Source of the DNA: Janthinobacterium sp. PAMC25594
GTDB taxonomy: Bacteria > Pseudomonadota > Gammaproteobacteria > Burkholderiales > Burkholderiaceae_D
NCBI RefSeq assembly: GCF_019443505.1
Contig: NZ_CP080377.1
Coordinates: 6,386,001 to 6,450,000 of the forward strand
Direction: 5' to 3'
DNA length: 64,000 nucleotides
Shown: one piece after another, positions 11,829-46,613 of the stretch
How positions within the stretch are numbered: the stretch's first letter is position 1
Layout of the letters: each line of letters opens with the position of its first letter
Program-made: the position numbers and the translations under genes
The notes under the pieces: model-generated
The model's input: only the letters and a program-made list of their open reading frames with translations
The model's database searches: none
Told to the model about the DNA's origin: nothing

Positions 11829-11844
11829 GGTTGGCCCTGGAAAC

Positions 11845-11869
11845 AAAAAAGCCCCGCATGAGCGAGGCT
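11845..11869 (-). terminator. Intrinsic terminator upstream of the tailspike gene
   Basis: On the minus strand AGCCTCGCTCATGCGGGGCT forms a stem-loop followed by six T. It lies between the injection gene at 11923-14154 and the tailspike. Confidence 0.7.
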
Positions 11870-11876
11870 GGAAAAG

Positions 11877-11901
11877 AAAAAGCCGCCTGGAAGGGCGGCG
11901 T
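11877..11901 (-). terminator. Second, tandem intrinsic terminator
   Basis: On the minus strand CGCCGCCCTTCCAGGCGGC is followed by five T, immediately before the terminator at 11845-11869. Tandem terminators would separate the virion operon from tailspike expression. Confidence 0.65.
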
Positions 11902-11922
11902 GCTGGGTGCGTGGGGTGCGGG

Positions 11923-15413: not shown

Positions 15414-16112
15414 TTATCCTCCACTCGCTGCTTGTGCGTTGATTCGCGCCATTTCGTCAGCGTAACCGCCTGCTGGCTGCCCGGTTCCTGCGCTGCGCCC
15501 ATAAATCGCGGCGAGTTGATTGCCAGTATTGGCCCAGATGTTCCCCTGGGCCAGCGTGGCAGCGCCGGCGTTGTTGGCAGCAGCGCGGGTCAGCGCGTTG
15601 TTCGATGCCGTGGCCTCTGCGCCCAATGCGCTCACATTTTGAGTGCTGGTCTGCCCGATATTGGCCAGCGCGGCCAGGCGATTCAGGCGGTCGGTGCGCG
15701 TCTGGTTAGCGCGGTTGTATGCCGCGCTGTAGCCGCTGGTGGCGTAGTCGCTGCCGTACTGGGCCGCAGCCTTCAGGGCTGCGCCGGAGATGCGGCCACC
15801 GGCGGCCGAGGTTTGGCGGTTAATTGCCTGCTGGCCCTGATCCAGGCCAAACTGGTAACCGGGTTCGAGCTGGACCTGGCTCCGATCGAGCGGAGTATCG
15901 TTTTCCGTTGCGAACGTGCCAAGGGCCTTGGTGCCAGCTGCCAAGTACGGCGCATAATCCGATCGCGTCAGATCGTACTGGCGACGACTTTCCGCCAGGC
16001 TATCGGCAGTACCCTGCGCTTGCTGGTCGGCGGCGTTGCCGGCGGCGTTCGAACTGATCAGCGAGCCCCCAATGGTGCCGACGACTGCGGCTCCCGCTAC
16101 CCAAAATGTCAT
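15414..16112 (-). CDS. DNA ejection protein (P22 gp7 position)
   Basis: 232 residues with an N-terminal glycine-rich hydrophobic segment (VAGAAVVGTIGGSLI, about 5-19) followed by helical, Ala/Asn/Gln-rich sequence. P22 gp7 is of similar size and is the first of the ejection genes. It overlaps the cupin-like gene by 4 nt. Confidence 0.65.
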   Translation of the reverse strand: MTFWVAGAAVVGTIGGSLISSNAAGNAADQQAQGTADSLAESRRQYDLTRSDYAPYLAAGTKALGTFATENDTPLDRSQVQLEPGYQFGLDQGQQAINRQTSAAGGRISGAALKAAAQYGSDYATSGYSAAYNRANQTRTDRLNRLAALANIGQTSTQNVSALGAEATASNNALTRAAANNAGAATLAQGNIWANTGNQLAAIYGRSAGTGQPAGGYADEMARINAQAASGG

Positions 16113-26568: not shown

Positions 26569-27636
26569 TCAGGATTCATGCGGGTCTGCGGGTTGGTCTT
26601 CGCCACTTTTTCGCCGTGCAGTGAATCCCATTTTCTTGGCGATGCTGCCTTGCGCTTGCACGGCGGTGTCGAGGTTCTTCTCAAGGTAGGCCATGGTGGT
26701 CAACGGGCTTTTGTGGCGCAGCACCTTCTGGATGGTCTGGATCGGCACGCCTGATTCGGACAGCAGGGTGGCGAAGCTGCCGCGCAGACGGTGTGGGGTG
26801 ATGCCCTTGGTCTTGCAGTGGGCGTTGGCAGTGGCGATAGGGCGCCGGGCGAAGCCGGGCGGCTGCTGGCTGCCGTCCTTACGCGCGGTAATCAGGCCTT
26901 CGGGCTGGCGCCGGGGTTGTAGGTAGTCGACCAGCCACGCGGGCATCGGTACCGGCTCGGCCTCCTTACCCTTGGTGATGCCGGGCGTGTAGGTGCGCCG
27001 CTCCCAATCGATCCATTCCCAGCGCGCGCTGGCGGCTTCGCTTTCGCGCAGGCCCAGGCCAAACATGAAGCGGATAGCAGTGGAGACGGCAAGGGAGCGG
27101 CGGCCGGCGCCGTCGATGGCATCGAGCCACTGCATGGCCACATCAAGCGGCAGGATTTTACGCGGGCGCTTCTGTGTGCTGAGCATGGCCACGTTCCATG
27201 GCCGGCGTGCCAGCATGCCCTGGGAAACGGCCCAATTCGTCACCAGCCGCATCACGCGCAGCCAGTGGTTGGCCGTGGCCGGCTCGCGCGTGGTCAGGTG
27301 TTCGTTGCGGGCCAGCTCGATGTGGCGTGCAGTGATCTCGCTGACGAGCAGGTCGCCCAGGTCGTACAGGTGCAGGCGGTAGCAGGTGCTGACGCTGCGC
27401 ACGTGGGCGGCGCTCGACACCGGGCCACGCACCAATAGCCACTCGGCGAAGAGCGCGCGCAGTGTCGGTACCGGCTTGCCGCCGTTCGTGCGCACTACCT
27501 CCTCATCGTAGGCGCGGCTGGCCACCGCTTCGGCACGAGCCTTGGCGCGTTCGCGCGTGCTGCGCTGAACGCGGCTGCCGGCCACCTGGAAGCGGTAGTG
27601 CCAGATTTTCTTGACCTTGAACAGGGCGAATGTCAT
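26569..27636 (-). CDS. Second tyrosine recombinase, internal to the prophage
   Basis: 355 residues with an N-terminal SAM-like core-binding domain (RALFAEWLLVRGPVSS...) and a catalytic domain containing the expected Arg in GLGLRESEA, the HRLRGS box and HKSPLTTMAYLE with the Tyr nucleophile. All signature residues are present. Unlike the integrase at 42236-43219 it lies between dnaB and the terminase operon, far from either att site. Possible roles are resolution of genome multimers or inversion of a segment; it could also be a captured integrase. Confidence 0.8.
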   Translation of the reverse strand: MTFALFKVKKIWHYRFQVAGSRVQRSTRERAKARAEAVASRAYDEEVVRTNGGKPVPTLRALFAEWLLVRGPVSSAAHVRSVSTCYRLHLYDLGDLLVSEITARHIELARNEHLTTREPATANHWLRVMRLVTNWAVSQGMLARRPWNVAMLSTQKRPRKILPLDVAMQWLDAIDGAGRRSLAVSTAIRFMFGLGLRESEAASARWEWIDWERRTYTPGITKGKEAEPVPMPAWLVDYLQPRRQPEGLITARKDGSQQPPGFARRPIATANAHCKTKGITPHRLRGSFATLLSESGVPIQTIQKVLRHKSPLTTMAYLEKNLDTAVQAQGSIAKKMGFTARRKSGEDQPADPHES

Positions 27637-32581: not shown

Positions 32582-32610
32582 ATATTAGGAGTAGCTAACA
32601 TAAATGTCAA
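32582..32610 (-). promoter_or_regulatory. Cro-side early promoter (PR)
   Basis: On the minus strand TTGACA (32610-32605), a 17-bp spacer and TAATAT (32587-32582) make a near-consensus sigma-70 promoter reading into the cro-like gene. The spacer contains TTAGCTACTCC, shared with the DGR promoter at 33824-33852. Confidence 0.8.
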
Positions 32611-32648
32611 TAGCCACTCCTAATCCAGTAACAGTTAGGATCGCCTAA
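32585..32648. promoter_or_regulatory. CI/Cro operator region with TTAGG-N4-CCTAA sites
   Basis: Three dyad sites: TTAGGAGTAGCTAA (about 32586-32599, overlapping the -10 of PR), its inverted relative TAGCCACTCCTAA (32611-32623, upstream of the -35) and the perfect palindrome TTAGGATCGCCTAA (32635-32648, touching the CI start codon). The arrangement resembles tripartite lambdoid operators. The repressor identity is inferred from position. Confidence 0.65.
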
Positions 32649-33340
32649 TGACACTTTCAGAACGTATACGAGCAGCTATGACTGCTTCCCAGATGAACCA
32701 GACCGAACTTGCAAGGGCATGCGGAGTGAAGCCCCCGAGCGTTCACGGCTGGCTGACAGGTAAGGCAAAATTTCTGCGAGGCGAGAATTTGTTGTTGGCG
32801 GCCAAGGCGTTAGGGGTAACTCAAGAGTGGCTCGCAACCGGTCGAGGTGAAATGCACCAAAGTCCTGCGGCATCTATGCCTAATGCACGCCAGGTCATAG
32901 CCGCCGATCAAGACGACCCTAACTTCGTGGAAATACCAATGGTCAAACTGAAGCTCTCTGCTGGGATAACCGGATTCAACACAGATCCTGATCGGCGAGA
33001 CGGAGGAACGCTGGGTATGAGGCGTAATTGGATCGAGAGAAGGGGGTACAAACCCCATAAATTGATAGCAATTCAAGTGAGCGGGGAGAGCATGGAGCCA
33101 TCTCTTTATGCCGATGATGTGATTGTCATTAATACCGATGATGTTCAGCCAGTTGATGGTCAAGTTTTTGCGATCAACTATGAGGGACAAGCGGTTGTAA
33201 AGCGCTTAGCGCGCGATGCAGGAGAATGGTGGCTCACCTCTGATAGTCCTGACCAACGAAAGCATGCCCGGAAAGTTTGTCGAGACGACGCATGCATCAT
33301 TATTGGACGAGTAGTCCACAAAGAAAGTGATCGTATCTGA
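32648..33340 (+). CDS. CI-like prophage repressor (HTH plus S24 peptidase)
   Basis: 230 residues. HTH_3 domain at 1-60 (MNQTELARACGVKPPSVHGWL); an S24/LexA-type autoprotease C-terminus with catalytic Ser in SGESMEPS (about 148) and Lys in AVVKRL (about 185). An Ala-Gly pair in LSAGITG is a candidate cleavage site. It maintains lysogeny and should be inactivated by RecA* during DNA damage. It is coupled (TGATG) to the gene at 33340. The operator motif it faces recurs in front of the DGR targets. Confidence 0.88.
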   Translation: MTLSERIRAAMTASQMNQTELARACGVKPPSVHGWLTGKAKFLRGENLLLAAKALGVTQEWLATGRGEMHQSPAASMPNARQVIAADQDDPNFVEIPMVKLKLSAGITGFNTDPDRRDGGTLGMRRNWIERRGYKPHKLIAIQVSGESMEPSLYADDVIVINTDDVQPVDGQVFAINYEGQAVVKRLARDAGEWWLTSDSPDQRKHARKVCRDDACIIIGRVVHKESDRI

Positions 33341-33726
33341 TGAGCGATTTACCAGTTGATGATTACCACGATCGTGCGCTAGATGCATTGGCTAAAACCG
33401 ACGAAGCAACAAAACTTAGATTTAAGCAATTGATGTGCGAAAGCCCTGCAAATTTTGACTTTTACGGCGCTGTTTTAGAGGCGAAAAAAGGGGCGGAATT
33501 AGATGAAATCATAGCCTACCCGGACAAAAATCTCGAAATGAAGTACACAGTACAGCAAGGATTGCGAGCGGCGTGCCATGGAAGAGAGGACACAGCTACA
33601 GTGATGATTGTTCAGTTAGCAATATTGAAAAGGCTTGATAAAGCTGAAAAATTGAACAACCGTGTCTATTTTTGCATGTGTGCAGTAGTGGTGCTGTTGC
33701 TCTATATTGCATCAAAGCTATCATAA
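33340..33726 (+). CDS. CI-coupled protein with a C-terminal membrane anchor
   Basis: 128 residues; ATG overlaps the CI stop codon by one base, so it is expressed in the lysogen. The soluble N-terminus is charged and helical; residues about 105-126 (VYFCMCAVVVLLLYIASKL) form one membrane helix at the very end. Lower GC than the neighbours. Genes in this position often confer superinfection exclusion or other lysogenic traits; that is a positional inference only. Confidence 0.7.
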   Translation: MSDLPVDDYHDRALDALAKTDEATKLRFKQLMCESPANFDFYGAVLEAKKGAELDEIIAYPDKNLEMKYTVQQGLRAACHGREDTATVMIVQLAILKRLDKAEKLNNRVYFCMCAVVVLLLYIASKLS

Positions 33727-33789: not shown

Positions 33790-33818
33790 ACTCCTAATAT
33801 TTATTAAATATTAGGAGT
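33790..33818. promoter_or_regulatory. 29-bp perfect palindrome with operator half-sites, upstream of DGR
   Basis: ACTCCTAATATTTA and its exact inverse TAAATATTAGGAGT flank one central base. The ends ACTCCTAAT/ATTAGGAGT equal the operator half-sites of the CI/Cro region. Located just upstream of the -35 of the promoter at 33824-33852. Confidence 0.75.
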
Positions 33819-33823
33819 TCCTA

Positions 33824-33852
33824 TTGACTTAAAAATTAGCTTGTCCTAATAT
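33824..33852 (+). promoter_or_regulatory. DGR-operon promoter, a near copy of the cro promoter
   Basis: TTGACT (33824-33829), 17-bp spacer, TAATAT (33847-33852). Aligned in register with PR it shares ATTAGGAGT..CTATTGAC upstream and TTAGCT..TCCTAATAT across spacer and -10. Additional TCCTAA half-sites overlap and follow the -10. It reads into the first DGR target gene. Confidence 0.8.
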
Positions 33853-33888: not shown

Positions 33889-34335
33889 ATGCCCCAGCCC
33901 ACCGCAGCACCTTCCACCACCCCCGCAGCCGACACTATCGGCGCCCAGCCCTTCATTCCTGTAGTCGTCTCGTACGGACATATCCCAGCCGCCATCGGCG
34001 CCGCTTTTGCCGGTGGCATCTATGCCGGCATCATCCGCGGCGTGGATGGTGGTCCCGATCAGCACCTGGTGCTGGTGGAAGGGGAGGGCGTTGATTTGTC
34101 CTGGGAGGCCGCCGGCGTCTGGGCCGAGTCTGTGGGCGGTTCGCTGCCGACGTGCGCCGAGCAAGCGCTGCTGTTCGCCAACCTGAAAGACCAGTTCAAG
34201 TCGGACTGGTACTGGTCTGGTGAGCAGGCCGGCCCCTCTTACGCGTGGCTTCAGTATTTCTACTATGGCGGCCAGGTCAACATCCTCAAGTCGTACGAAG
34301 GCCGCGCCCGCGCCGTCCGCAGATTGCCAATTTAA
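33889..34335 (+). CDS. DGR target protein 1 (DUF1566-like, variable C-terminus)
   Basis: 148 residues; ATG 33889 is 6 nt after AGGAG, whereas ATG 33883 abuts it. The N-terminal linker is proline-rich, then the conserved body GGIYAGIIRGVDG, LSWEAAGVWAESVGG and LPTCAEQALLFANLK leads to WYWSGEQAGPS and the variable block YAWLQYFYYGGQVNILKSYE, ending RARAVRRLPI. This is the C-type-lectin/DUF1566 type of ligand-binding scaffold used by many DGR targets. No signal peptide or membrane segment. It is the first gene behind the CI-type operator promoter. Confidence 0.85.
   Translation: MPQPTAAPSTTPAADTIGAQPFIPVVVSYGHIPAAIGAAFAGGIYAGIIRGVDGGPDQHLVLVEGEGVDLSWEAAGVWAESVGGSLPTCAEQALLFANLKDQFKSDWYWSGEQAGPSYAWLQYFYYGGQVNILKSYEGRARAVRRLPI
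34237..34324 (+). repeat. DGR variable repeat VR1
   Basis: 88 nt matching TR 38911-38998. All 12 differences are at TR adenines (to T, G or C). The upstream part of the TR homology is missing: this target is 6 nt shorter (GPSYAW instead of GPSSSNAW). Confidence 0.93.
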
Positions 34336-34390
34336 TCCTTTATTAATTTCCTTTTCGTCCCGACCACGACATCCCATCACGGAGCCACTC

Positions 34391-35023
34391 ATGACCAGCA
34401 ATGCCGCCACGCCTTGTGCCACACCAGGCGCTGCCATCCCCCTCGCTACCTGCTCCCTTTGCCATCGCTCAGTCGATGCCAACAGCAATGCACGTGCTGA
34501 CGCCATTGTCAGCGGCTTGCTCGACGCCGAATTGTGGCCGGTCGATAGCGAGCTGGTCACCGAGATTCGCGCCATGTTCCTGACCCATTGGGGCATGGAC
34601 AAGGGGCAGGCCGATGCGCGGATGTCCCGCCTCCATTACAGCTCGGCTGCCGCTTTGGTGCCCGTGACCGGGCCTGGCGCCATTGGCAGTGCCTACGCTG
34701 GTGGTATCTATGCCGGGATCATGCGCGGCGTCGATGGTGCGCCTGACGAGCACCTGGTGCTGATGTCAGGTCAAGCCGAGGGCGTGAGCTGGGACGCGGC
34801 ATGCGCCTGGGCCAGGTCGATTGGTGGCGAGCTGCCAAGCCGTCGCGAACAGCGCTTGCTGTTCATCAACTTGAAAGATGAATTCAAGGATGAGTGGTAC
34901 TGGTCCAGCGAGCAGGCCGGCCCCTCTAACGCGTGGATTCAGGGTTTCGACTTTGGCAACCAGCACTACTACCGCAAGTCGTACGAAGGCCGCGCCCGCG
35001 CCGTCCGCAGATTACCAATTTAA
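34391..35023 (+). CDS. DGR target protein 2 (DUF1566-like, with N-terminal extension)
   Basis: 210 residues from ATG 34391 (GGAGCCACTC upstream). An N-terminal extension of about 95 residues carries CSLCHRSVD (a CxxC pair that may bind zinc or form a disulfide) and a helical region. The DUF1566-like body follows (GGIYAGIMRGVDG, VSWDAACAWARSIGG, LPSRREQRLLFINLK), then WYWSSEQAGPSNAWIQGFDF with the variable block and RRLPI end. Target 1 is closely similar in the shared part, pointing to gene duplication. Confidence 0.85.
   Translation: MTSNAATPCATPGAAIPLATCSLCHRSVDANSNARADAIVSGLLDAELWPVDSELVTEIRAMFLTHWGMDKGQADARMSRLHYSSAAALVPVTGPGAIGSAYAGGIYAGIMRGVDGAPDEHLVLMSGQAEGVSWDAACAWARSIGGELPSRREQRLLFINLKDEFKDEWYWSSEQAGPSNAWIQGFDFGNQHYYRKSYEGRARAVRRLPI
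34925..35012 (+). repeat. DGR variable repeat VR2
   Basis: 88 nt aligned to TR 38911-38998; 10 differences, all at TR adenines. The first template codon AAC is unchanged here, so this VR is the closest to the template. Confidence 0.93.
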
Positions 35024-35053
35024 TCCCTTATCCATTTCAGCATGAGATCCGCC

Positions 35054-35392
35054 ATGACTCTCGAAAACATTGCCTCAGCGTTGCCTGGAAATGCGCAAAG
35101 CTCTCCGCCGGACCGCGTGCGGCGCGTTTCTCTCGCCATGCCAAGTAAGGCGCTCTGCCTCGTTGGTGCCACCTACAGCCTGGCCAATGGCCGTGGCGAA
35201 CGGATTGCAATGGTTTCGGTTGTACCTCAGGGACTTGGCGCCACGCGTACTGCCGCCGCTCGCATGGCTTATTCGTCAGAAATGGTTGGCGCGCTGCGCG
35301 CCGCAAGCATGGATTATGAGATGAATGGCGCCGTGTCACCCGAAACCATCAGCCTGATGCGCCGGCTGATCGATGACATAGGTGCCGCATGA
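35054..35392 (+). CDS. Small phage protein in the DGR operon (unknown)
   Basis: 112 residues from ATG 35054 (alternative ATG 35042 has no RBS). Contains LCLVGATYSLANGRGERIAMVSVVPQG and a helical C-terminus. Starts about 30 nt after target 2 and overlaps the next gene by 4 nt. Not recognised. Confidence 0.5.
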   Translation: MTLENIASALPGNAQSSPPDRVRRVSLAMPSKALCLVGATYSLANGRGERIAMVSVVPQGLGATRTAAARMAYSSEMVGALRAASMDYEMNGAVSPETISLMRRLIDDIGAA

Positions 35393-35583
35393 ATGCCAGG
35401 GAGCTACTTGCCGCGATACGCCGTTGTGTTGTCGATGCCCAGCAGAGTGAGCCGAATGACGTCGAGGCGCGCGCGCACTACTTTATCGCAACCCTGTCCG
35501 GATCGCTGGAGAAATACGATGCCGTCGGCGCTGAGTTGGTGTTTTCCGTCATCACCCAGCCTGTCAGCGGGGAAGCCAGATGA
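35389..35583 (+). CDS. 64-residue phage protein (unknown)
   Basis: Overlaps both neighbours by 4 nt (ATGA), the best evidence that it is translated. Helical N-terminus (MNARELLAAIRRCVVDAQQ). No family recognised. Confidence 0.5.
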   Translation: MNARELLAAIRRCVVDAQQSEPNDVEARAHYFIATLSGSLEKYDAVGAELVFSVITQPVSGEAR

Positions 35584-35720
35584 TCGCCTTTATCGTTACC
35601 GTGCGCCGCGATGGCTTGCCAGTGCTGTCCTATCCGCATCAGGCGTGCGATGGCAGCACCGCAATCATGAATGCACAGGATAAATATGGCATCTGCCGTG
35701 TTTCCGTCAAGCCAGCATAA
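35580..35720 (+). CDS. 46-residue phage protein (unknown)
   Basis: ATG overlaps the preceding stop (ATGA). Product MIAFIVTVRRDGLPVLSYPH... is beta-rich and ends VSVKPA. Short, but coupled on both sides and in phase with operon spacing. Confidence 0.45.
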   Translation: MIAFIVTVRRDGLPVLSYPHQACDGSTAIMNAQDKYGICRVSVKPA

Positions 35721-35729
35721 GGAATTGCT

Positions 35730-35840
35730 ATGCGCAAAATGATCACCCTGTTGCACATGTATCGCCACTTCCGTCGCCATGGCGCCGGCCAGTTTGGCGC
35801 TGCCATCAAGGCTGTACGCGTCTACCAGACTGGATTCTGA
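35730..35840 (+). CDS. 36-residue basic phage peptide (unknown)
   Basis: Reads MRKMITLLHMYRHFRRHG and ends YQTGF; AAGGAATTGCT precedes the ATG. Rich in Arg/His, so it could bind nucleic acid. Too short for a family call. Confidence 0.4.
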   Translation: MRKMITLLHMYRHFRRHGAGQFGAAIKAVRVYQTGF

Positions 35841-35841
35841 T

Positions 35842-36030
35842 ATGCCGCGCGCTGATCCGGACCGCGCCGCGCTGGAAATCGCACACCACGCGCTGCAGAC
35901 AACCATGTCGCTCGACGACATGCTGAAGCAACGCCACTTTGAACTGATTTTGAAATGCCTCGCCCGCCGGCACATGCAGCGCCGCGCGCGCATTGATGTG
36001 AAAAAGCTGCAAGCCAATGACCACGACTGA
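35842..36030 (+). CDS. 62-residue phage protein (unknown)
   Basis: Starts one base after the previous stop. Helical and basic (MSLDDMLKQRHFELILKCLARRHM). Operon spacing supports translation; no homology recognised. Confidence 0.45.
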   Translation: MPRADPDRAALEIAHHALQTTMSLDDMLKQRHFELILKCLARRHMQRRARIDVKKLQANDHD

Positions 36031-36040
36031 AGGAGCCCAC

Positions 36041-36391
36041 ATGGGACAAAGAGCATTTGCCGTATTTCTGCAGGAATTGCGCGACGGCCGCACGCATATT
36101 GAACTGACCACGGCCCTGGCTGACCTTCTCGGCAAAGTGAAGGACACAGGGAAGGCCGGCAGCATCACCCTGCAAATCGGCGTCAAGCCGGCTGGCAAAG
36201 GTGCCGACGTCGACAAGGTTGTAATCATGGACAAGATCACGACTAAGCTGCCGACGCCTGAGCGCGGCGAAGATTTCTACTGGCTCACCGATGACAACGA
36301 CCTGAGCCGCAACCACCCGAAGCAAAGCACCCTTGACCTGCGCGAAGCTGCGCCAACCGCTCCACTCGTATTGAAAGAAGCCACGAAATGA
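36041..36391 (+). CDS. Phage protein paired with DUF2303 gene
   Basis: 116 residues; AAGGAGCCCAC is a strong RBS for ATG 36041. Strand/helix pattern AFAVFLQELRDGRTHIELTTALADLL...GSITLQIGVKPAG. The stop overlaps the DUF2303 gene by 4 nt; such pairs occur in early regions of other temperate phages. Function unknown. Confidence 0.6.
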   Translation: MGQRAFAVFLQELRDGRTHIELTTALADLLGKVKDTGKAGSITLQIGVKPAGKGADVDKVVIMDKITTKLPTPERGEDFYWLTDDNDLSRNHPKQSTLDLREAAPTAPLVLKEATK

Positions 36392-37266
36392 ACCAACCCA
36401 CCACCTTGACCAACGATGCGGCCGGCGCTGGTAGCGCTGCTGCCGAGCATCTGCATATTGATGCGGACGCCATTGCACGTATTGGCACCCTCGCCACGGC
36501 TGCGGCCGCCGTGCGTCACGTTGACGCTGCCACCTTCCTCGTACTGCCGCCAGAATTCACCGCCAAATCCATCACGGCTGAAATCGAGGCAGCGTCGGAC
36601 GCGCCCAACCGCAAGCGCGGCACCGTTGCACTTTCCAGCGTAGAAAGTTTCAAGGCATTCATCGTGGACCAGGGCCTTATCGACTCCAGCTACATCTATG
36701 CGGATCCAGACAAGCGCACGCTGACCGCTGTGCTGAATGAGCATGTGCATTCCGCTCCTGTTGCTGGCTGGCGCGACTTCCGTGCCGTCTACACGGCGGA
36801 GCTCAGCCGCGAATTCGACAACTGGCTTCGCAATGACAAAAAAATCATGGAGCAGGAAGAGTTCGCTATTTTCCTGGAAGACAACATCGCTGACATTGTC
36901 GAACCATCGGGCGATGCGTTGCACGCCGTGGCCCTGACGCTGCAGGCGAAAACCGAAGTAGCCTTTTCCAGCCATCGGCGCCTGGACAACGGCCAGGTGC
37001 AGCTGGGTTATTCGGAGTCGATCACGGCTACCGCCGGCGGCGCGGGCAACATCGATATCCCACGCGAGTTTGCCATTGGCGTGCGCCTTTTCAAAAATGG
37101 CGAGGGCTACAAGGTACGCGCGCGTCTGAAATACCGCCTGGGTAACGGCAAGGTGAAGTTCTGGTATGAGCTGGACCGCGCAGAGAACGTCATCGAAGAA
37201 GCCTTCGATGCCTACATTGATGCTGCTACGGCCAGCGGCTTCACCGTTCTGCGGGGCAAACCTTAA
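36388..37266 (+). CDS. DUF2303 family phage protein
   Basis: 292 residues: residues about 50-150 (VRHVDAATFLVLPPEFTAK, AFIVDQGLIDSSYIYADPD, HSAPVAGWRDFRAVYT) and the C-terminal AIGVRLFKNGEGYKVRARLKYR are characteristic of the DUF2303 family, found in many phage early regions near recombination or replication genes, with no established activity. A short GC-rich stem-loop (CTGGGCGC...GCGCCCAG, 37272-37293) follows it before target 3. Confidence 0.75.
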   Translation: MNQPTTLTNDAAGAGSAAAEHLHIDADAIARIGTLATAAAAVRHVDAATFLVLPPEFTAKSITAEIEAASDAPNRKRGTVALSSVESFKAFIVDQGLIDSSYIYADPDKRTLTAVLNEHVHSAPVAGWRDFRAVYTAELSREFDNWLRNDKKIMEQEEFAIFLEDNIADIVEPSGDALHAVALTLQAKTEVAFSSHRRLDNGQVQLGYSESITATAGGAGNIDIPREFAIGVRLFKNGEGYKVRARLKYRLGNGKVKFWYELDRAENVIEEAFDAYIDAATASGFTVLRGKP

Positions 37267-37329
37267 TCATCCTGGGCGCCTACGTGCGCCCAGCAACATC
37301 ACCACCTGATTTTCACACGAAGGAAACCT

Positions 37330-37938
37330 ATGAACATCATCACCAATACCTTGCCGGCTGCCATTGGTGCCGCATTCGGCGGCGGCTTCTTCGCTGGCCT
37401 GATTAATGCCGGTGGCAAAACCTTTGCGCTGATCGTGTCGCCGAAGCTGTTCGGTGAATTCAAGGGCCGCTGGCACGCATCGGATGACAGCGTGCCGGGC
37501 GCCGAAGACTATGCCGATGGACTGGCCAACACCAATGCTATGGCGGCCGCTGGTAGCGAACTGGCCAAGGCCGTGCGCGCCAGCGTCATCGAAGGCTTCG
37601 ATGACTGGTACATCCCAGCGCGCGACGAGCTCGAACTGATCTACCGCAACCTCAAGCCGACGGATTATGAAAATTCGGCATCCTTCCGCGATGGTGAAAA
37701 CCCTAGCAGCGTACCGATGGGCCGCCACTACACCGAGGAATTGCCAGGGCAGACCGGCGTGGACGAATTCCGTGCAGGTGGCAACCAGGCGCTGGACCCC
37801 GTCTGGCACTGGTCCAGCACGCAGTACGGCCCTTCCTCTTCTTACGCGTGGGGTCAGCATTTCTACGGTGGCTACCAGACCAACTTCCACAAGTCGTACG
37901 AAGGCCGCGCCCGCGCCGTCCGCAGATTGCCAATTTAA
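37330..37938 (+). CDS. DGR target protein 3 (DUF1566-like, longer body)
   Basis: 202 residues; AAGGAAACCT precedes ATG 37330. The body differs from targets 1, 2 and 4: GGGFFAGLINAGGKTFALIV, then a long helical insert, WYIPARDELELIYRNLK and HWSSTQYGPSSSYAWGQHF with the variable block, ending RRLPI. The W-(Y/H)-WSS and RARAVR motifs are standard DUF1566/lectin-fold features. Its VR has the full-length match to the template, including the QYGPSSS codons absent from targets 1 and 2. No secretion signal. Confidence 0.85.
   Translation: MNIITNTLPAAIGAAFGGGFFAGLINAGGKTFALIVSPKLFGEFKGRWHASDDSVPGAEDYADGLANTNAMAAAGSELAKAVRASVIEGFDDWYIPARDELELIYRNLKPTDYENSASFRDGENPSSVPMGRHYTEELPGQTGVDEFRAGGNQALDPVWHWSSTQYGPSSSYAWGQHFYGGYQTNFHKSYEGRARAVRRLPI
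37819..37927 (+). repeat. DGR variable repeat VR3
   Basis: 109 nt, full-length match to TR 38890-38998, with 11 differences, all at TR adenines. Both flanks diverge immediately outside. Confidence 0.95.
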
Positions 37939-37974
37939 CTATTTATCAATTTTCTTTCACTTCGAAAGCCCAGC

Positions 37975-38343
37975 ATGAGCAAACAACAATTCATGGCCGA
38001 GAACCTGCAGGAAGGCGAGATCTACGCCGGCCTGATCCTCGGCAAGGACGGCGCCGCTGACTATCACCTGTTTCTGCAGGCAGGCGAAGCTGTGGACGTG
38101 ACGTGGCAGGCGGCCGTCGACTGGGCCAAGAAGTTGGGTCACAGCTTGCCAACGCGCCGCGAACAAGCGCTGCTGATCGCTAACCTGAAGGAGCAGTTCC
38201 AGCCGCGCTGGTATTGGTCGGGCGAGCAGTACGGCCCTTCCTCTTCTTACGCGTGGGGTCAGCTTTTCGGCTATGGCTACCAGGACTACGACCTCAAGTC
38301 GTACGAAGGCCGCGCCCGCGCCGTCCGCAGATTAGAAATTTAA
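37975..38343 (+). CDS. DGR target protein 4 (DUF1566-like, shortest)
   Basis: 122 residues. It consists almost entirely of the ligand-binding module: GEIYAGLILGKDGAADYH, VTWQAAVDWAKKLGH, LPTRREQALLIANLK, WYWSGEQYGPSSSYAW, variable block, RRLEI. It lies 18 bp upstream of the avd gene, the classical position of a DGR target. The final residues (RRLEI) differ from the RRLPI of the other three. Confidence 0.88.
   Translation: MSKQQFMAENLQEGEIYAGLILGKDGAADYHLFLQAGEAVDVTWQAAVDWAKKLGHSLPTRREQALLIANLKEQFQPRWYWSGEQYGPSSSYAWGQLFGYGYQDYDLKSYEGRARAVRRLEI
38226..38332 (+). repeat. DGR variable repeat VR4
   Basis: 107 nt matching TR 38892-38998 with 13 differences, all at TR adenines, the most diversified of the four. 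Confidence 0.95.
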
Positions 38344-38361
38344 TCCTTTAACCATTTCGAC

Positions 38362-38733
38362 ATGGCCAACCATACCGACCTGCCGATTTCCAAGGTTGCC
38401 TACGATCTGCTGGTCGTGGCAACCGACCTCACCAAGAATATGCCCCGCGACTTCAAGGCATCGATTGGCAAGGAAATCCGCGACGAGTGCGTGCGTTTGA
38501 CGGTGCTTATCTTCCGCGCGAACTGCGCGGGCGACAAAACGCCGTACCTCGACAAGTTGATCGAGCGCACCCAGGTGATCGAGTTGCTGTTCCGGCTTTC
38601 CAAGGATATGCGCTTTATCTCCGTCGCACAGTATGCGCGGGCCATCGCATTAACCAGCATGGTCGGCAAGCAGGCCGGCGGCTGGCGCAAGTACACCGCA
38701 TCGTCGCCTGTATCCCCTCGGTCAAGGCCGTAG
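38362..38733 (+). CDS. avd: DGR accessory variability determinant (Avd)
   Basis: 123 residues with the four-helix-bundle Avd pattern: LPISKVAYDLLVVATDLTKN, IRDECVRLTVLIFRANCAG, IERTQVIELLFRLSKDMRFI and the C-terminal MVGKQAGGWRK. Avd forms a basic barrel that binds the RT and template RNA and is required for mutagenic homing in studied DGRs. It is located between the last target and the TR, as in the Bordetella phage arrangement. The last about 12 residues look like a non-conserved tail. Confidence 0.9.
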   Translation: MANHTDLPISKVAYDLLVVATDLTKNMPRDFKASIGKEIRDECVRLTVLIFRANCAGDKTPYLDKLIERTQVIELLFRLSKDMRFISVAQYARAIALTSMVGKQAGGWRKYTASSPVSPRSRP

Positions 38734-38889
38734 GGACCGTGCGATCTTTTAATCTGGTCGTGCCGCTGGCTCACAAGGCCACCGCTATGCGCACCGCAGT
38801 AACCAGCCGGCGGTGTCCGGACAGGCCTGGCGCAGTTTCCCCGCTGATCGGCATAGCCTTCGGCGGGGCGACGTAGATAGCACGAATTG

Positions 38890-38998
38890 ACGCAGTACGG
38901 CCCTTCCTCTTCTAACGCGTGGAATCAGAATTTCAACAATGGCAACCAGAACAACAACCACAAGTCGTACGAAGGCCGCGCCCGCGCCGTCCGCAGAT
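38890..38998 (+). repeat. DGR template repeat (TR)
   Basis: 109 nt. In target frame it would encode TQYGPSSSNAWNQNFNNG followed by NQNNNHKSYEGR: nine Asn codons (AAC/AAT), whose adenines are the mutable positions; no target protein surrounds it. The 3' end (GTCCGCAGATC versus GTCCGCAGATT in VRs) marks the IMH*/IMH difference. The RT start codon (38939) is inside it. The 156 nt between avd and TR may hold the structured spacer RNA used for priming. Confidence 0.95.
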
Positions 38999-40102
38999 CA
39001 TCCCGATGCGGACTTCACGCTCGAGCAGCTGGCCGTCGCCTATTTTGACTGCCGCCGCAGCAAACGCAATACCCCCAGCGCCCTGGTGTTTGAGCAGCAC
39101 CTGGAGCGCAACCTGATCGAGCTGCACGACGAGCTGCAGGATGGTTCGTACAAGCCTGGCCAGTCGATCTGCTTTGTCGTCACCCGCCCGAAAGCACGCG
39201 AGGTGTGGGCGGCCGACTTCCGCGACCGTGTCGTGCACCACCTGCTGTACAACAAAATTTCGCCACGCTTCTATGCCTCGTTCATCAAGGACACATGCGC
39301 CTGCATCCCTGGGCGCGGCACCATGTACGCCGCCAAGCGCCTCGAATCGAAGATCCGCAGCGTGACACAGAACTGGGCCCAGCCAGCTTTTTATCTGAAA
39401 TGCGACCTGGCTAACTTCTTCGTGGCCATCGATAAGGTAGTGCTGCGCGGGCAGATCGCTGCGCGCGTCACCGAGCCATGGTGGCTTCGCCTGGCCGAAA
39501 CCATCCTGTTCCACGATCCACGGGAGAATTACCAGCTGCGCGGCGAGGCCGACATGCTGGCGCGCGTGCCGGCGCACAAGCGCCTGGTCAATCAGCCAGT
39601 CCACTTGGGCCTGCCGATTGGCAACCTTTCATCACAGTTCTTCGCAAATATTTACCTCGATGCGCTGGACCAGCACTGCAAGCACCGTATTGGCGCCCGC
39701 CATTACATCCGTTACGTCGACGACTTCCTGCTGCTGCACGAATCGCCACAGTGGCTGTGCGCGGCGCTGGCCAACATCAACGAGTTCCTGCCGCGCGTGC
39801 TGCACGCCAATCTCAATCCCAGAAAAACCATCCTGCAGCCCATCGCCCGCGGCGTGGACTTCGTTGGGCAGGTCATCAAGCCTTGGCACAGCCGCACGCG
39901 GCGCCGCACTGTGCACGAGGCGACAAGCCGTGTCGCAGGCATTGCTGCCGACGAGGTGTTTGCCACGGCAAACAGCTACTTTGGTCTGCTGCGCCAGGCG
40001 GGTAGCAGCCATGCAGACCGGGCAGCGCTGGCGCGCACTGTGCTGCGGCGCGGGCATTGCGTCGATCAGGCGCTTACTAAAACTTATCGGAAATCCGCAT
40101 GA
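38939..40102 (+). CDS. DGR reverse transcriptase
   Basis: 387 residues. N-terminal DGR-RT region FTLEQLAVAYFDCRRSKRN, then RT core: LKCDLANFF (about 153), GLPIGNLSSQFFANIYLD (about 223, the DGR-type motif 4 with SQ) and YIRYVDDFLLL (about 259, catalytic YVDD). The only in-frame ATG upstream of the core is 38939, inside the TR; an in-frame stop lies at 38888-38890. The first about 20 residues are thus TR-encoded. It makes the adenine-mutagenised cDNA. The stop overlaps the methyltransferase start (ATGA). Confidence 0.93.
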   Translation: MATRTTTTSRTKAAPAPSADHPDADFTLEQLAVAYFDCRRSKRNTPSALVFEQHLERNLIELHDELQDGSYKPGQSICFVVTRPKAREVWAADFRDRVVHHLLYNKISPRFYASFIKDTCACIPGRGTMYAAKRLESKIRSVTQNWAQPAFYLKCDLANFFVAIDKVVLRGQIAARVTEPWWLRLAETILFHDPRENYQLRGEADMLARVPAHKRLVNQPVHLGLPIGNLSSQFFANIYLDALDQHCKHRIGARHYIRYVDDFLLLHESPQWLCAALANINEFLPRVLHANLNPRKTILQPIARGVDFVGQVIKPWHSRTRRRTVHEATSRVAGIAADEVFATANSYFGLLRQAGSSHADRAALARTVLRRGHCVDQALTKTYRKSA

Positions 40103-41646
40103 AACGAGACAACTTCACCATGTCGCTCGACCTGGGCAGTGAGCTGCTCATCGACAACTTTGCCGGTGGTGGCGGGGCATCTGAGGGTATTGAGCAAGCA
40201 TTCGGTCGCCCCGTCGATGTGGCCATCAACCACAATGGCGAGGCACTTGCCCTGCATGCGGCCAACCACCCTTATACAGCCCACCATCAAGAGGACGTGT
40301 ACGCAGTGCACCCAGGCTTCATCACGGGTAACCGTCCTATCGGCCTGGCGTGGTTCAGCCCCGACTGCAAGCACCATAGCAAGGCCAAGGGCGGGAAGCC
40401 GCGGGAAAAGAAGATCAGGGGTCTGGCCTGGGTAACGCTTAAGTGGGGCGCATTCCAGATGCCTCGCTGCATCGCACTGGAAAATGTTGAAGAATTTCTC
40501 GACTGGGGCCCACTGGACGACGAGGGAAGCCCGATTGCCCACGCAAAGGGCCGCACCTTCGCGGCATTTATCGATGCGCTGTCGACAGGCCTCGCCGCCG
40601 ATCATCCGGACGTGCCGGAAATCTACGAGGCGCTGGGCGCCGACTTCCCGATGGAGCGCCTGTATCGCGGTCTTGGCTACAAGGTCGAATACAAGATCCT
40701 GCGCGCCTGCGACTTCGGCACCCCGACTATCCGCAAACGCCTGTTTGTGTTCGCGCGCCGCGACGGCCTGGCCATTCGCTGGCCGGTACCGACGCACGGC
40801 AATCCAAAGTTGAAGGGCTTCGCCAAGTCCGGCCTGAAGCCTTGGTTGACGGCTGCCGATTGTATCGACTGGTCCATCCCTTGCCCAAGCATTTTCACGC
40901 GCAAGAAGCCGCTGGCCGACAAGACGCTGGCGCGCGTGGCCAAGGGTGTGATGAAGTATATCGTCAACGCTGAAGACCCTTTTATCGTGCCGGCCGGCGG
41001 CGCGCCGTTCCTGGCGGAGCATGCGAACGGTTCCACCCAGCGCAACTTCAGCGCGGCCGAACCACTGCGCACACAGTGCGCCGAAATCAAAGGCGGCCAC
41101 TTCGCCCTGGTGAGTGCGATGCTGGCGAAGCACTACAGCGGCGTCGTCGGCACGGCGGTGACGGTGCCGTTCGGCACGGTCACCACATCGGATCACCATT
41201 CCGTTGTGGCCAGCACCATCGTCAAGCTGCGCAACAACCAGTTCGGCCAGGACGTGCTGCAGCCCATCCCGACGCTGACGGCCGGCGGCGGCCACGTGGC
41301 CGAGGTCCGCGCCTTCCTGATTAAGTATTACAGCGAAGGTGGCCAAGATCAGTCGCTGACCGATCCGATGCATACCATCCCCACCAAGGATCGCATCGGG
41401 CTGGTAACCATTCGCGGCGAAGACTACGCCATCGTCGACATCGGCATGCGCATGCTGACGCCACGCGAGCTGGCGCGCGCCCAGGGCTTCCCGGAGACCT
41501 ACATTCTCGACCTGGTGCATAACGGCAAAAAACTGTCGAAGGAGGCGCAGGTGCGCATGATCGGCAACAGTGTTTGCCCACCGCTGGCGCGCGCCCTAGT
41601 GGCCGCCAATTTCCAACACGAACAACAGTTTGCGAGGGCAGCATGA
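40099..41646 (+). CDS. C5-cytosine DNA methyltransferase
   Basis: 515 residues. Motif I FAGGGGASEGIEQAFG (21-36), motif IV FSPDC with the catalytic Cys90 (PDC rather than the usual PPC), motif VI ENVEEF (128-133), motif VIII TIRKRLFVFARR and motif X RMIGNSVCPPLARAL near the end. It transfers methyl to cytosine C5, most likely to protect phage DNA. The ATGA overlap couples it to the RT. No restriction endonuclease gene is adjacent. Confidence 0.9.
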   Translation: MKRDNFTMSLDLGSELLIDNFAGGGGASEGIEQAFGRPVDVAINHNGEALALHAANHPYTAHHQEDVYAVHPGFITGNRPIGLAWFSPDCKHHSKAKGGKPREKKIRGLAWVTLKWGAFQMPRCIALENVEEFLDWGPLDDEGSPIAHAKGRTFAAFIDALSTGLAADHPDVPEIYEALGADFPMERLYRGLGYKVEYKILRACDFGTPTIRKRLFVFARRDGLAIRWPVPTHGNPKLKGFAKSGLKPWLTAADCIDWSIPCPSIFTRKKPLADKTLARVAKGVMKYIVNAEDPFIVPAGGAPFLAEHANGSTQRNFSAAEPLRTQCAEIKGGHFALVSAMLAKHYSGVVGTAVTVPFGTVTTSDHHSVVASTIVKLRNNQFGQDVLQPIPTLTAGGGHVAEVRAFLIKYYSEGGQDQSLTDPMHTIPTKDRIGLVTIRGEDYAIVDIGMRMLTPRELARAQGFPETYILDLVHNGKKLSKEAQVRMIGNSVCPPLARALVAANFQHEQQFARAA

Positions 41647-44729: not shown

Positions 44730-46613
44730 ATGAATATTACTCAACTCCGCAATTTCAACGGATTTTCATTAAAAAATCCATCAACATTTCAGAATGCTAT
44801 TTCCGTTATCATTGGAAGAAATGGATCAGGAAAAACACGTTTTCTAAATTCAATAGTAAATGGAAGCTGCAATATTGAAATCAACGAAACCATTCTGCAA
44901 AACTCTCAAATAAAACTTATCTCATCTCATGAATTTAATCCAAATCTTGGTCAATTTTTTGAGAAAAATAGACATGAACGCAGTATAGAATCAATATGTA
45001 ATGCATTGAAAAATTACAAGGATAATTTGGAAATATTAATCCAAGATGGCGCTACAAATTATAGGGAAGTCATAAGTCCACGCGCAATATATATGGCAAT
45101 CAAAAAAATTGCAAATGCAGTAGAAAAGAACCCTCAAGAACTAACGCAGGAAGACATACTATTGCATTACACAGAAGAAAATGAAAATATAATTGGACAT
45201 TTAAATGTACGAGAGATGTTCTCCGACTACATACGCAAAATTTGGCAAAACAAATATAATGGATTCCTCCTTACATTAGGGGAAAGCGTCCCACATTACA
45301 ATGATGAAGAATTCAAAGAGAGATTTGGTGAAAGGCCGTGGATTCCACTAAATAATATTTTAAGCTTCATTTTTGACGGAAAGTATCATTTCAATCCTCC
45401 ATCAGAAACAGATCGCACACTAAGCGAACCGACTGACCTACTAGATGAATCAGGCACAATAATTACACCACCAATGTTATCCTCCGGAGAAAACACTTTA
45501 CTTTGGATGGCTCTAACATTATTTAACAGTCAATATGGAAAGCAAACATTGAGCGCAGCACCAAAACTTATTTTAATGGATGAGCCAGATGCTTTCCTTC
45601 ATCCCAAAATGGTTGACAAATTATTTCAAACGTTGGAAATCTTCACTAAAAATTTTGGGGTAAAAATTATACTCACAACTCACTCGCCGACAACGGTAGC
45701 ACTGGCACCAAACGACATTATTTACCTTATAAAAAATAACGAGGTTAGTGAAATTGACAAGGATTCGGCAATCTCAGAACTATTGTCAGGGGTTACTCAG
45801 ATATCTATAGATCCTGAAAACCGACGACAAGTTTATGTTGAAAGTCTATATGATCACGCAATATATCAATTAATTTATGATAAATTGGTGAAAAAATCAA
45901 AGCATCTGGATAAAAAGATAAATTTAACCTTCATAAGTTCCGGCCCCAAGGTATCAAAAGGTCATATTATAAATTCAGCCAAATTTGTTGGGATTGTTGA
46001 TGAAGAAAAATTGAATCAACTGGCGGAATTGATCAACGGAGCGGGGAATTGCACTCAAGTAGAAGGAACAGTTAATGAACTTATAGAAAATGGAAATAGA
46101 ACAGTTAGAGGGGTAATTGATTGGGATCTGAAGGCACATGATACAAAATTTGTCAAAGTATTAGCCAAGGATCATTGTTATGCAATAGAAAATTTAATAA
46201 TAGATCCGATCTGCACGTTATTATTTCTACATAAAAAATGGCCTACCGAGTATCCAATAAAAGATTTTTGCGAAGAAGAAGTGCATTGGTCTGATTGGAT
46301 TAAGGATGAAAAATTACTGCAAAAATCAATGGATTATTTCATTTTTAAAATTAGTGGCAAAAAAAACGCAAGAAATACCGAGACGGAATATCTCAACGGA
46401 ATTAAATTGTTAAGCGATAAAGATTATTTGCAAATTCACAGCAAAGCTCTACCTGATCTGGCAGTGAAGGAATTTAAAAGATTAACATCGACAATTGGGA
46501 ACAAAAAAAGAGGATTAATGTACGAAATTGCAGAATTTAGCATGGTGCATGAAACAAATGGTGATCTTATTCCGGTTCAATTTGAGACTATATTTAAAGC
46601 ACTCCAAGAATAA
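44730..46613 (+). CDS. AAA ATPase with DUF4435/TOPRIM-like C-terminus, defence candidate
   Basis: 627 residues. ABC/SMC-type ATPase: Walker A GRNGSGKT (29-36), signature LSSGENTLLWMAL (about 250), Walker B LILMDEPDAFLHP (about 283) and H-loop LTTHSPTTVAL. From about 370 comes an OLD/DUF4435-like part (VYVESLYDHAIYQL, FVGIVDEEKL, VRGVIDWDLKAHD, YAIENLI) with acidic residues typical of TOPRIM nucleases. Strikingly AT-rich against the GC-rich surroundings, so recently acquired. Related ATPase-TOPRIM proteins are anti-phage systems; here a role in superinfection exclusion is inferred. Confidence 0.75.
   Translation: MNITQLRNFNGFSLKNPSTFQNAISVIIGRNGSGKTRFLNSIVNGSCNIEINETILQNSQIKLISSHEFNPNLGQFFEKNRHERSIESICNALKNYKDNLEILIQDGATNYREVISPRAIYMAIKKIANAVEKNPQELTQEDILLHYTEENENIIGHLNVREMFSDYIRKIWQNKYNGFLLTLGESVPHYNDEEFKERFGERPWIPLNNILSFIFDGKYHFNPPSETDRTLSEPTDLLDESGTIITPPMLSSGENTLLWMALTLFNSQYGKQTLSAAPKLILMDEPDAFLHPKMVDKLFQTLEIFTKNFGVKIILTTHSPTTVALAPNDIIYLIKNNEVSEIDKDSAISELLSGVTQISIDPENRRQVYVESLYDHAIYQLIYDKLVKKSKHLDKKINLTFISSGPKVSKGHIINSAKFVGIVDEEKLNQLAELINGAGNCTQVEGTVNELIENGNRTVRGVIDWDLKAHDTKFVKVLAKDHCYAIENLIIDPICTLLFLHKKWPTEYPIKDFCEEEVHWSDWIKDEKLLQKSMDYFIFKISGKKNARNTETEYLNGIKLLSDKDYLQIHSKALPDLAVKEFKRLTSTIGNKKRGLMYEIAEFSMVHETNGDLIPVQFETIFKALQE

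Follow-up and report, generated by a model that had tools for sequence, protein, structure and literature searches.

A prophage diversity-generating retroelement in Janthinobacterium with four small targets in a putative repressor-controlled early operon

We analyzed a 64,000-nt stretch of the Janthinobacterium sp. PAMC25594 genome (NZ_CP080377.1, positions 6,386,001 to 6,450,000; here "the window"), which carries a prophage with a diversity-generating retroelement (DGR). Positions 33889-40102 were confirmed to hold a complete DGR, comprising Avd, a template repeat (TR), a reverse transcriptase (RT), and four variable repeats (VRs), with each VR located 3'-terminally in a separate small DUF1566/Lcl_C-like gene. 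The original prediction, made from the sequence alone, was that one RT, one Avd, and one TR serve four targets of 122 to 210 residues, and all of these parts were found at the locus, with measured target lengths of 148, 210, 202, and 122 amino acids (aa). The parts are as follows:

33889..34335, plus strand: target 1, 148 aa, DUF1566/Lcl_C-like, the first gene after a putative pL promoter, with AGGAG preceding its ATG
34237..34324, plus strand: VR1
34391..35023, plus strand: target 2, 210 aa, DUF1566/Lcl_C-like, with an N-terminal extension
34925..35012, plus strand: VR2
37330..37938, plus strand: target 3, 202 aa, Lcl_C (Pfam E = 2.2e-9, above cut-off)
37819..37927, plus strand: VR3
37975..38343, plus strand: target 4, 122 aa (116 aa if it starts at ATG 37993), Lcl_C-like
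38226..38332, plus strand: VR4
38362..38733, plus strand: Avd (PF22296 E = 1.4e-11; phrog_3206 E = 2.1e-32)
38702..38892, plus strand: RT-15 RNA (RF03018; 177.4 bits, cut-off 82, E = 6.5e-44), a putative leader between Avd and the TR, sharing 3 nt with the start of the TR
38890..38998, plus strand: TR, with nine AAY codons in the VR frame
38939..40102, plus strand: DGR RT, 387 aa

The repeats differ in the manner of a DGR. In an 84-nt register, VR1, VR2, VR3, and VR4 depart from the TR at 11, 10, 10, and 12 of 27 template adenines, respectively, and each at 0 of 57 non-A positions. The last 37 nt of this register are the anchor, picked for identity in all five copies; with the anchor excluded, 43 of 80 template-A cells differ compared with 0 of 108 non-A cells. 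Over a 36-codon register, from which VR1 and VR2 lack the first seven codons (a 5' length difference), amino acid changes are confined to nine AAY codons and one CAC codon, with a single exception at VR4 codon 1, at the repeat edge. A check for initiation of mutagenic homing sequences (IMH/IMH*) found post-VR sequence that is common to the four VRs and absent from the TR, and folding of this sequence gave no strong common hairpin. An A-tolerant scan of the 64 kb returned no VR-like copy besides the TR and the four VRs, and a 111-nt BLAST query matched only these five places in the 6.55-Mb genome, a search that a strongly altered copy could escape. The A-tolerant scan likewise placed no VR in any structural gene of the window, consistent with the earlier statement that the tailspike carries none; the open reading frame at 10170-12008 is without a PHROG match. 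With its four VRs all in the early arm, the element falls outside the BPP-1 type of tail-fibre DGR.

Profile matches and motifs upheld the family labels given earlier to the RT and Avd and, less firmly, to the targets. The RT matches phrog_1423 (E = 1.3e-115), its best match in the PDB is 8ub7 (9e-37), and alignment with the BPP-1 enzyme shows both GNLSSQ and YVDD. Among loci long enough to judge, [LIV]GxxxSQ is present in 81/82 and Y[VMA]DD in 80/82. Ahead of the conserved region, the sole in-frame ATG, GTG, or TTG is ATG 38939, which places the RT start within the TR, as it also is in the closest relatives of the window; overlap of the TR with the RT reading frame defines a known structural group in the portions available of two DGR surveys (PMC3521204, PMC6642488). 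Avd scores 45.3 bits against PF22296 (cut-off 40) and 54.5 bits against NF033474, under that model's cut-off of 80, and has no sequence match in the PDB.

RT-15 RNA was present in all 16 loci tested (the window and 15 relatives, drawn from the 84 distinct loci described below), and in all 16 its last base lies at most 4 nt from the TR start. Every one of the 15 relatives searched exceeds the Rfam gathering score. Because its end adjoins the TR start in 16/16 loci, RT-15 is most simply read as the leader of the template RNA, a proposal drawn from its position. A search of 369 genomes of the class detected RT-15 in the window's own genome only; that search applied stricter filters, and its sample included almost no relatives. 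A search of the open-access literature by name turned up no paper on RT-15. Folding of 38702-39150 gave a stability no greater than that of shuffles (z = -0.22). In BPP-1, the TR directly follows avd and a 144-nt spacer precedes brt, and the available text of a recent study describes a structured priming spacer 3' of the TR (PMC12875486). In the window, by contrast, about 190 nt of RT-15 RNA lie 5' of the TR and the TR overlaps the RT reading frame; because RT-15 precedes the TR here, the recognized structured RNA is on the opposite side of the TR from that in BPP-1. Fourfold sites were compared to look for a BPP-1-like 3' RNA element within the RT gene, and the first 36 to 48 RT codons were more conserved in 10 Janthinobacterium-clade sequences and not in 63 wider ones.

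Natural variation indicates that the system acts. Phages Haboob (Denmark) and phPA-G (Portugal) have identical TRs and are separated by 14 of 1060 nt in the RT gene and 2 of 544 nt in the Avd-RNA stretch, while their two VRs show changes at 12/34 and 13/32 template As and at 0/69 and 0/68 other positions. Variation among isolates, which the original prediction had made its test, is thus seen at template As only, so the system appears to work in nature. Two further loci, L037 and L039, differ at 16/28 A sites in each of two VRs and at 2/74 and 1/74 other sites. Across the 21 pairs compared (one gapped VR of one pair was skipped), 13 differ mainly at template As and 8 are near-identical records without a VR difference. 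Between target 3 of the window and its metagenomic near-twin, P0002, 9 of 10 DGR residues and 7 of 192 others are different. From these comparisons, the family is almost certainly one of active DGRs.

We surveyed relatives by RT searches that gave 64 viral-contig loci, 23 genome-contig loci, and nine phage records of >60% identity, among them Magia listed twice; whole-genome matches occurred in 7/40 genomes of the genus and 13/294 of the family, own genome included. The 104 loci used (L006-L096, 12 genome stretches, and the window) reduce to 84 distinct loci, most with flanks of at most 10 kb, to which the VR counts apply. Seven loci have no VR by the scan rule (L033 has just 300 nt upstream), five have one, 45 have two, 23 have three, and four have four. 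At least one VR was therefore found in 77/84 loci, which answers the earlier concern that targets might be absent from relatives, and 72/84, including the window, have at least two. The claim of four targets on one template is real; such a number is not unique, and the four-VR loci (4/84) stand at the top of the range. In the family as a whole, 2228 of 5392 template As are changed compared with 35 of 12461 other positions, the latter count being biased low because the VR scan penalizes non-A mismatches. VR matches with fewer than three A changes per non-A change were discarded, which removed those of L041.

The VRs occupy a constant place. All 180 lie upstream of the RT on the same strand. An iterated search on the RT strand found a repressor upstream of the RT in 43 loci, and in all 42 loci with both a repressor and VRs, every VR lies between the repressor and the RT; this count covers the RT strand only, with one opposite-strand repressor match left out. 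A single-pass repressor search gave 30 such loci, including L024, which has no VRs. The integrase, recognized in 31 loci, is downstream of the RT in all 31 (23 on the same strand, 8 on the other), and of the 84 loci, 23 have a C5 methyltransferase match downstream of the RT and 5 have one upstream. The complete Haboob and Magia records contain no VR outside the early arm. The complete QDWS record has one further VR at ~44976 (L132:26977, locus tag 65), between repressor C and RecT and again in the early arm, in a gene annotated as a hypothetical protein. Because all of their VRs are in the early arm, no structural gene is targeted in these three isolates or in the window. A tail target was set aside on position.

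The early arm of the window is organized around a repressor, in agreement with the earlier siting of the targets beside it. The features that frame the cassette are as follows:

32582..32624, minus strand: putative pR promoter, TTGACA-17-TAATAT (10/12 promoter match) with an operator-like palindrome (14-nt arms, 93% complementary), directed towards minus-strand early genes
32648..33340, plus strand: CI-like repressor (PHROG transcriptional repressor phrog_4, E = 3.9e-51)
33790-33818, plus strand: putative pL operator palindrome, two perfect 14-nt arms
33824-33852, plus strand: putative pL promoter, TTGACT-17-TAATAT (9/12 match)
36388..37266, plus strand: DUF2303 gene (PF10065 E = 2.9e-54) between targets 2 and 3
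40099..41646, plus strand: C5-cytosine methyltransferase (PF00145 E = 8.4e-23), the next plus-strand gene, overlapping the RT stop

The putative pL promoter ends 36 nt upstream of the target 1 start and has its mirror image across the repressor gene, where a second promoter with the 93% palindrome lies on the minus strand. The word ACTCCTAATA is present on both sides of the repressor gene; with at most one mismatch it has 5 copies in the 64 kb, compared with 0.65 expected, and four of them are in the repressor region. As predicted from these motifs, the flanking promoters and palindromes form a pL and pR layout. Further small plus-strand genes lie between target 2 and the DUF2303 gene. Gaps between the genes chosen as neighbors range from -4 to 63 nt, with two exceptions: 296 nt before 36017, and the 205 nt between Avd and the RT that hold the RNA and the TR. 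A 128-aa gene at 33340-33726 (plus strand) overlaps the repressor stop, encodes a hydrophobic C-terminal stretch, and is possibly expressed in lysogeny; it had no Pfam or NCBIfam match.

The same arrangement recurs in part of the family. In 12/42 loci, window included, an 11-nt word from the flank upstream of the repressor recurs within the 140 nt that precede the first target (500 shuffles: mean 0.53, maximum 4), and beside later targets this is true of 1/64. The repressor-target gap is 466-1464 nt in ten of the twelve. The shared words differ from phage to phage, as would be expected of phages that differ in immunity. Promoter-like sites occur within 130 nt of 8/74 first targets compared with 0/102 later targets. 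In Hankyphage, according to the portion of the source available, the DGR became active when a CI-like repressor was silenced (PMC12135933), which agrees with control of the DGR by the repressor. Other observations count against this control: 30/42 loci are without an operator word beside the first target (which in these loci is mostly further along the same strand), and two of the 12 positives, L083 and L022, whose gaps span 5.6-7.3 kb, appear to be chance matches. The window promoter, at 9/12, is at the scan threshold, and its region has 11 such sites compared with 5.0 expected. In addition, two weak terminator-like sites (35114 and 35523) fall inside the proposed operon, in a scan that performed at or below chance level. 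On balance, the motifs and gene order make it likely that the targets and the mutator are together under early-operon control.

We then consider what the targets might be. Target 3 passes the PF07603 (DUF1566/Lcl_C) cut-off of 34.9 with 38.1 bits, and targets 4, 2, and 1 score 25.1, 20.2, and 13.8 bits. All 178 family targets match one profile at E<1e-5, a partly circular test, since the profile was built from 42 of the same proteins. Targets were called by the AAY-frame rule, with 2/180 VRs lost for want of a start codon; their median length is 161 aa (n = 177 uncut), and 168/177 are within 100-260 aa. By homology, the targets are predicted to have a C-type-lectin-like fold. Two of the positively charged upper-surface residues of the solved Lcl domain that were mutated in glycosaminoglycan-binding tests (PMC11162425), Lys380 and Lys385, fall opposite DGR-variable codons 16 and 21 in the alignment, under a numbering offset that suits all four of the lysines named. 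By crude home-made rules, none of the 178 targets has a lipobox and four have a weak signal-like start, and a secreted or surface role was set aside for now. In one locus (L036:7035-8618), a target is fused to a DHH/DHHA1 phosphoesterase-like part (below the Pfam cut-off, named after its homologues), and P0121 has the same fusion with a near-identical lectin part and different VR residues; this fusion is a hint of a cytosolic location.

Taken together, the best explanation is an early-operon DGR that diversifies early, probably intracellular binders, a reading to which we give a probability of about 0.6. The DGR would sit in the left early (pL-like) operon of a lambda-organized prophage. The RT and Avd would copy the TR RNA, with RT-15 as its leader, making errors at A, and the cDNA would replace the four VRs; the pattern of changes and the natural variation point to this copying, with the biochemistry taken by analogy from BPP-1. 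The four products, in which no export signal was recognized, would be small DUF1566/Lcl_C proteins with at most 10 DGR-variable residues each on a C-type-lectin-like face. Targets and mutator would stay off in the quiet lysogen and be switched on together as infection starts or on induction, because a repressor-flanking promoter has target 1 as its first gene, with the other targets, Avd, the RT, and the methyltransferase coming after it on the same strand. Diversified progeny would then bring new early proteins into the next host, where the targets would most likely act within the cell early in infection by binding host-cell molecules that vary. An intracellular, non-virion role of the targets is probable on the sequence evidence; counter-defence as the specific job is the leading candidate, put forward tentatively. 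Among the three roles originally proposed (secreted binder, superinfection, or intracellular decoy), secretion is disfavored by the scarcity of export signals, and an early intracellular role fits best.

Several points tell against intracellular DUF1566-type binders. Only target 3 passes the Pfam cut-off, and the export test is a home-made rule. The hydropathy threshold for a membrane segment is exceeded by 13/178 targets, most of them through a conserved stretch, rich in Ala and Gly, close to where the domain begins. Lcl itself is extracellular, according to the available part of its description. Finally, in the 87-kb phage PMBT3, a DUF1566-like protein (L135:5019-5531) adjoins peptidoglycan hydrolase and lysozyme genes; the PMBT3 record has no RT match.

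The first alternative is that the targets are virion parts, small receptor-binding tips on the tail, through which the DGR would alter host range in the way known from BPP-1. The PMBT3 relative among late genes speaks for it, as do the trimerization of the Lcl domain, the host-range change suggested in the available text of the Magia announcement (PMC7883833), and a weak Ig-like N-terminal match in the target of a distant locus, L065 (E 0.0059, below cut-off). The placement of all VRs between the repressor and the RT, 42 loci out of 42, points the other way; moreover, in the window, Magia, Cruim01, QDWS, and Haboob, the VRs and the structural genes are on opposite strands, and the four window targets lack a fibre domain in Pfam and PHROG. 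We consider a virion role unlikely.

Less likely again is that the targets are lysogenic-conversion proteins that guard the lysogen by superinfection exclusion or phage sensing. They do adjoin the repressor, and in the available text of a study of cellular DGRs, cytoplasmic targets are proposed as bacterial antigen sensors (PMC10907252). However, the putative promoter ahead of target 1 has palindromes resembling repressor operators, so target 1 would be expected to be silent in the lysogen; in about ten loci, similar words stand before the first target. The window targets also show no NTPase, adaptor, or effector domain and no PADLOC match. The superinfection role proposed originally is accordingly disfavored if it is meant to act in the resting lysogen. 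That the window copy is a relic of past diversification, with the prophage or DGR now dead, is very improbable: the search recovered no clear attachment sites (one 19-bp repeat), but the RT, Avd, and all four targets are open, the RT motifs are intact, and P0002 differs chiefly at DGR residues.

Two phages keep the targets without the mutator. In Medea1 (L134:5178-7064) and Aurca01 (L136:4178-6082), both targets are retained at the same place, and the place of avd-TR-RT is occupied by a gene that carries the annotation hypothetical or RecB and may be HNH-like. BLAST recovered an RT-end remnant of 22 and 28 residues, and in Medea1 also a weak 72-residue match with one stop; the RT search covered the whole Medea1 record and a 10.5-kb stretch of Aurca01. 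Between the two phages, target 1 differs at 15/31 A sites and 0/69 others, with 4/498 differences in the rest of the gene, and target 2 at 15/31 A sites and 1/69 others, with 31/498 in the rest. The insert common to both suggests that the loss was one event. If so, later diversification in trans or by recombination would be needed, and diversification in trans by a co-resident phage is possible.

Three other features of the window lie away from the DGR. Just beyond the integrase, an AAA ATPase-like gene (44730-46613, plus strand) has PADLOC matches to PtuA, GajA, and AriA models and is a possible defence gene at the prophage edge. A second integrase-like gene (26569-27636, minus strand) has DnaB helicase and terminase genes on either side. 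ARAGORN calls a tRNA-Ala at 15545-15620 (plus strand), antisense to the DNA-ejection gene 15414-16112. A look for attachment sites turned up only a 19-bp and a 16-bp repeat, neither convincing.

Phage DGRs are mostly read as tail-acting host-range devices. If the early-target rule is true, programmed hypermutation is also used on proteins that act after DNA entry. A broader and more doubtful proposal is that many temperate phages of Proteobacteria carry an antibody-like arsenal of immediate-early intracellular binders, served by one DGR and governed by the repressor of the lytic program, which a co-resident phage could also diversify in trans; this last part is suggested by the Medea1 and Aurca01 targets, which differ at template-A positions without an adjacent avd-TR-RT. 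Were this so, each burst would release phages with new early effectors against the variable defences of the next host. The proposals are testable, as Haboob, phPA-G, Magia, Cruim01, and QDWS are isolate phage records and close relatives exist in Janthinobacterium genomes; the phages that keep targets without the mutator provide a natural experiment, and RT-15 gives the leader RNA of the template a name.

Multi-target DGRs have already been described, and Magia was announced with a cassette of this kind. The open-access literature searched yielded neither the early-operon rule nor the RT-15 link; the argument for soluble, early, probably intracellular binders is likewise new here. BPP-1 (NC_005357) shares with the window the order target-avd-TR-RT, an alignable RT and Avd, and A-specific rewriting at the target 3' end, but has a single tail target, mtd, beside the tail-fibre gene. 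The available part of PMC3521204 reports DGRs that have two, three, and four VRs. Stenotrophomonas SKA14 and DiGReF Table 2 likewise have several paralogous targets, with DUF1566 common, and the available parts of these sources do not mention a temperate-phage early operon (PMC3521204, PMC6642488). The gut phage tentaclin DGRs also have two C-type lectin targets, but the text available presents these as receptor-binding proteins, with a differing topology and one 5' VR (PMC10743442). Cellular antigen-sensor DGRs, as far as the accessible text goes, resemble the window in that some targets are predicted to be cytoplasmic and one clade pairs a lectin-only target with a longer one; they differ in being bacterial conflict systems with NTPase/MoxR partners rather than phage early genes (PMC10907252). 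The Magia announcement, in the part available, names genes 47 and 57 as targets and proposes host range or adaptation, with early control not discussed there (PMC7883833). We found three VRs in Magia, the third in gene 46 (L070:12517-12607), which is annotated as hypothetical and is not among the announced targets. In its Avd, TR, RT (63% identical), and short lectin-fold targets in the early arm, Magia (MT701587) is like the window.

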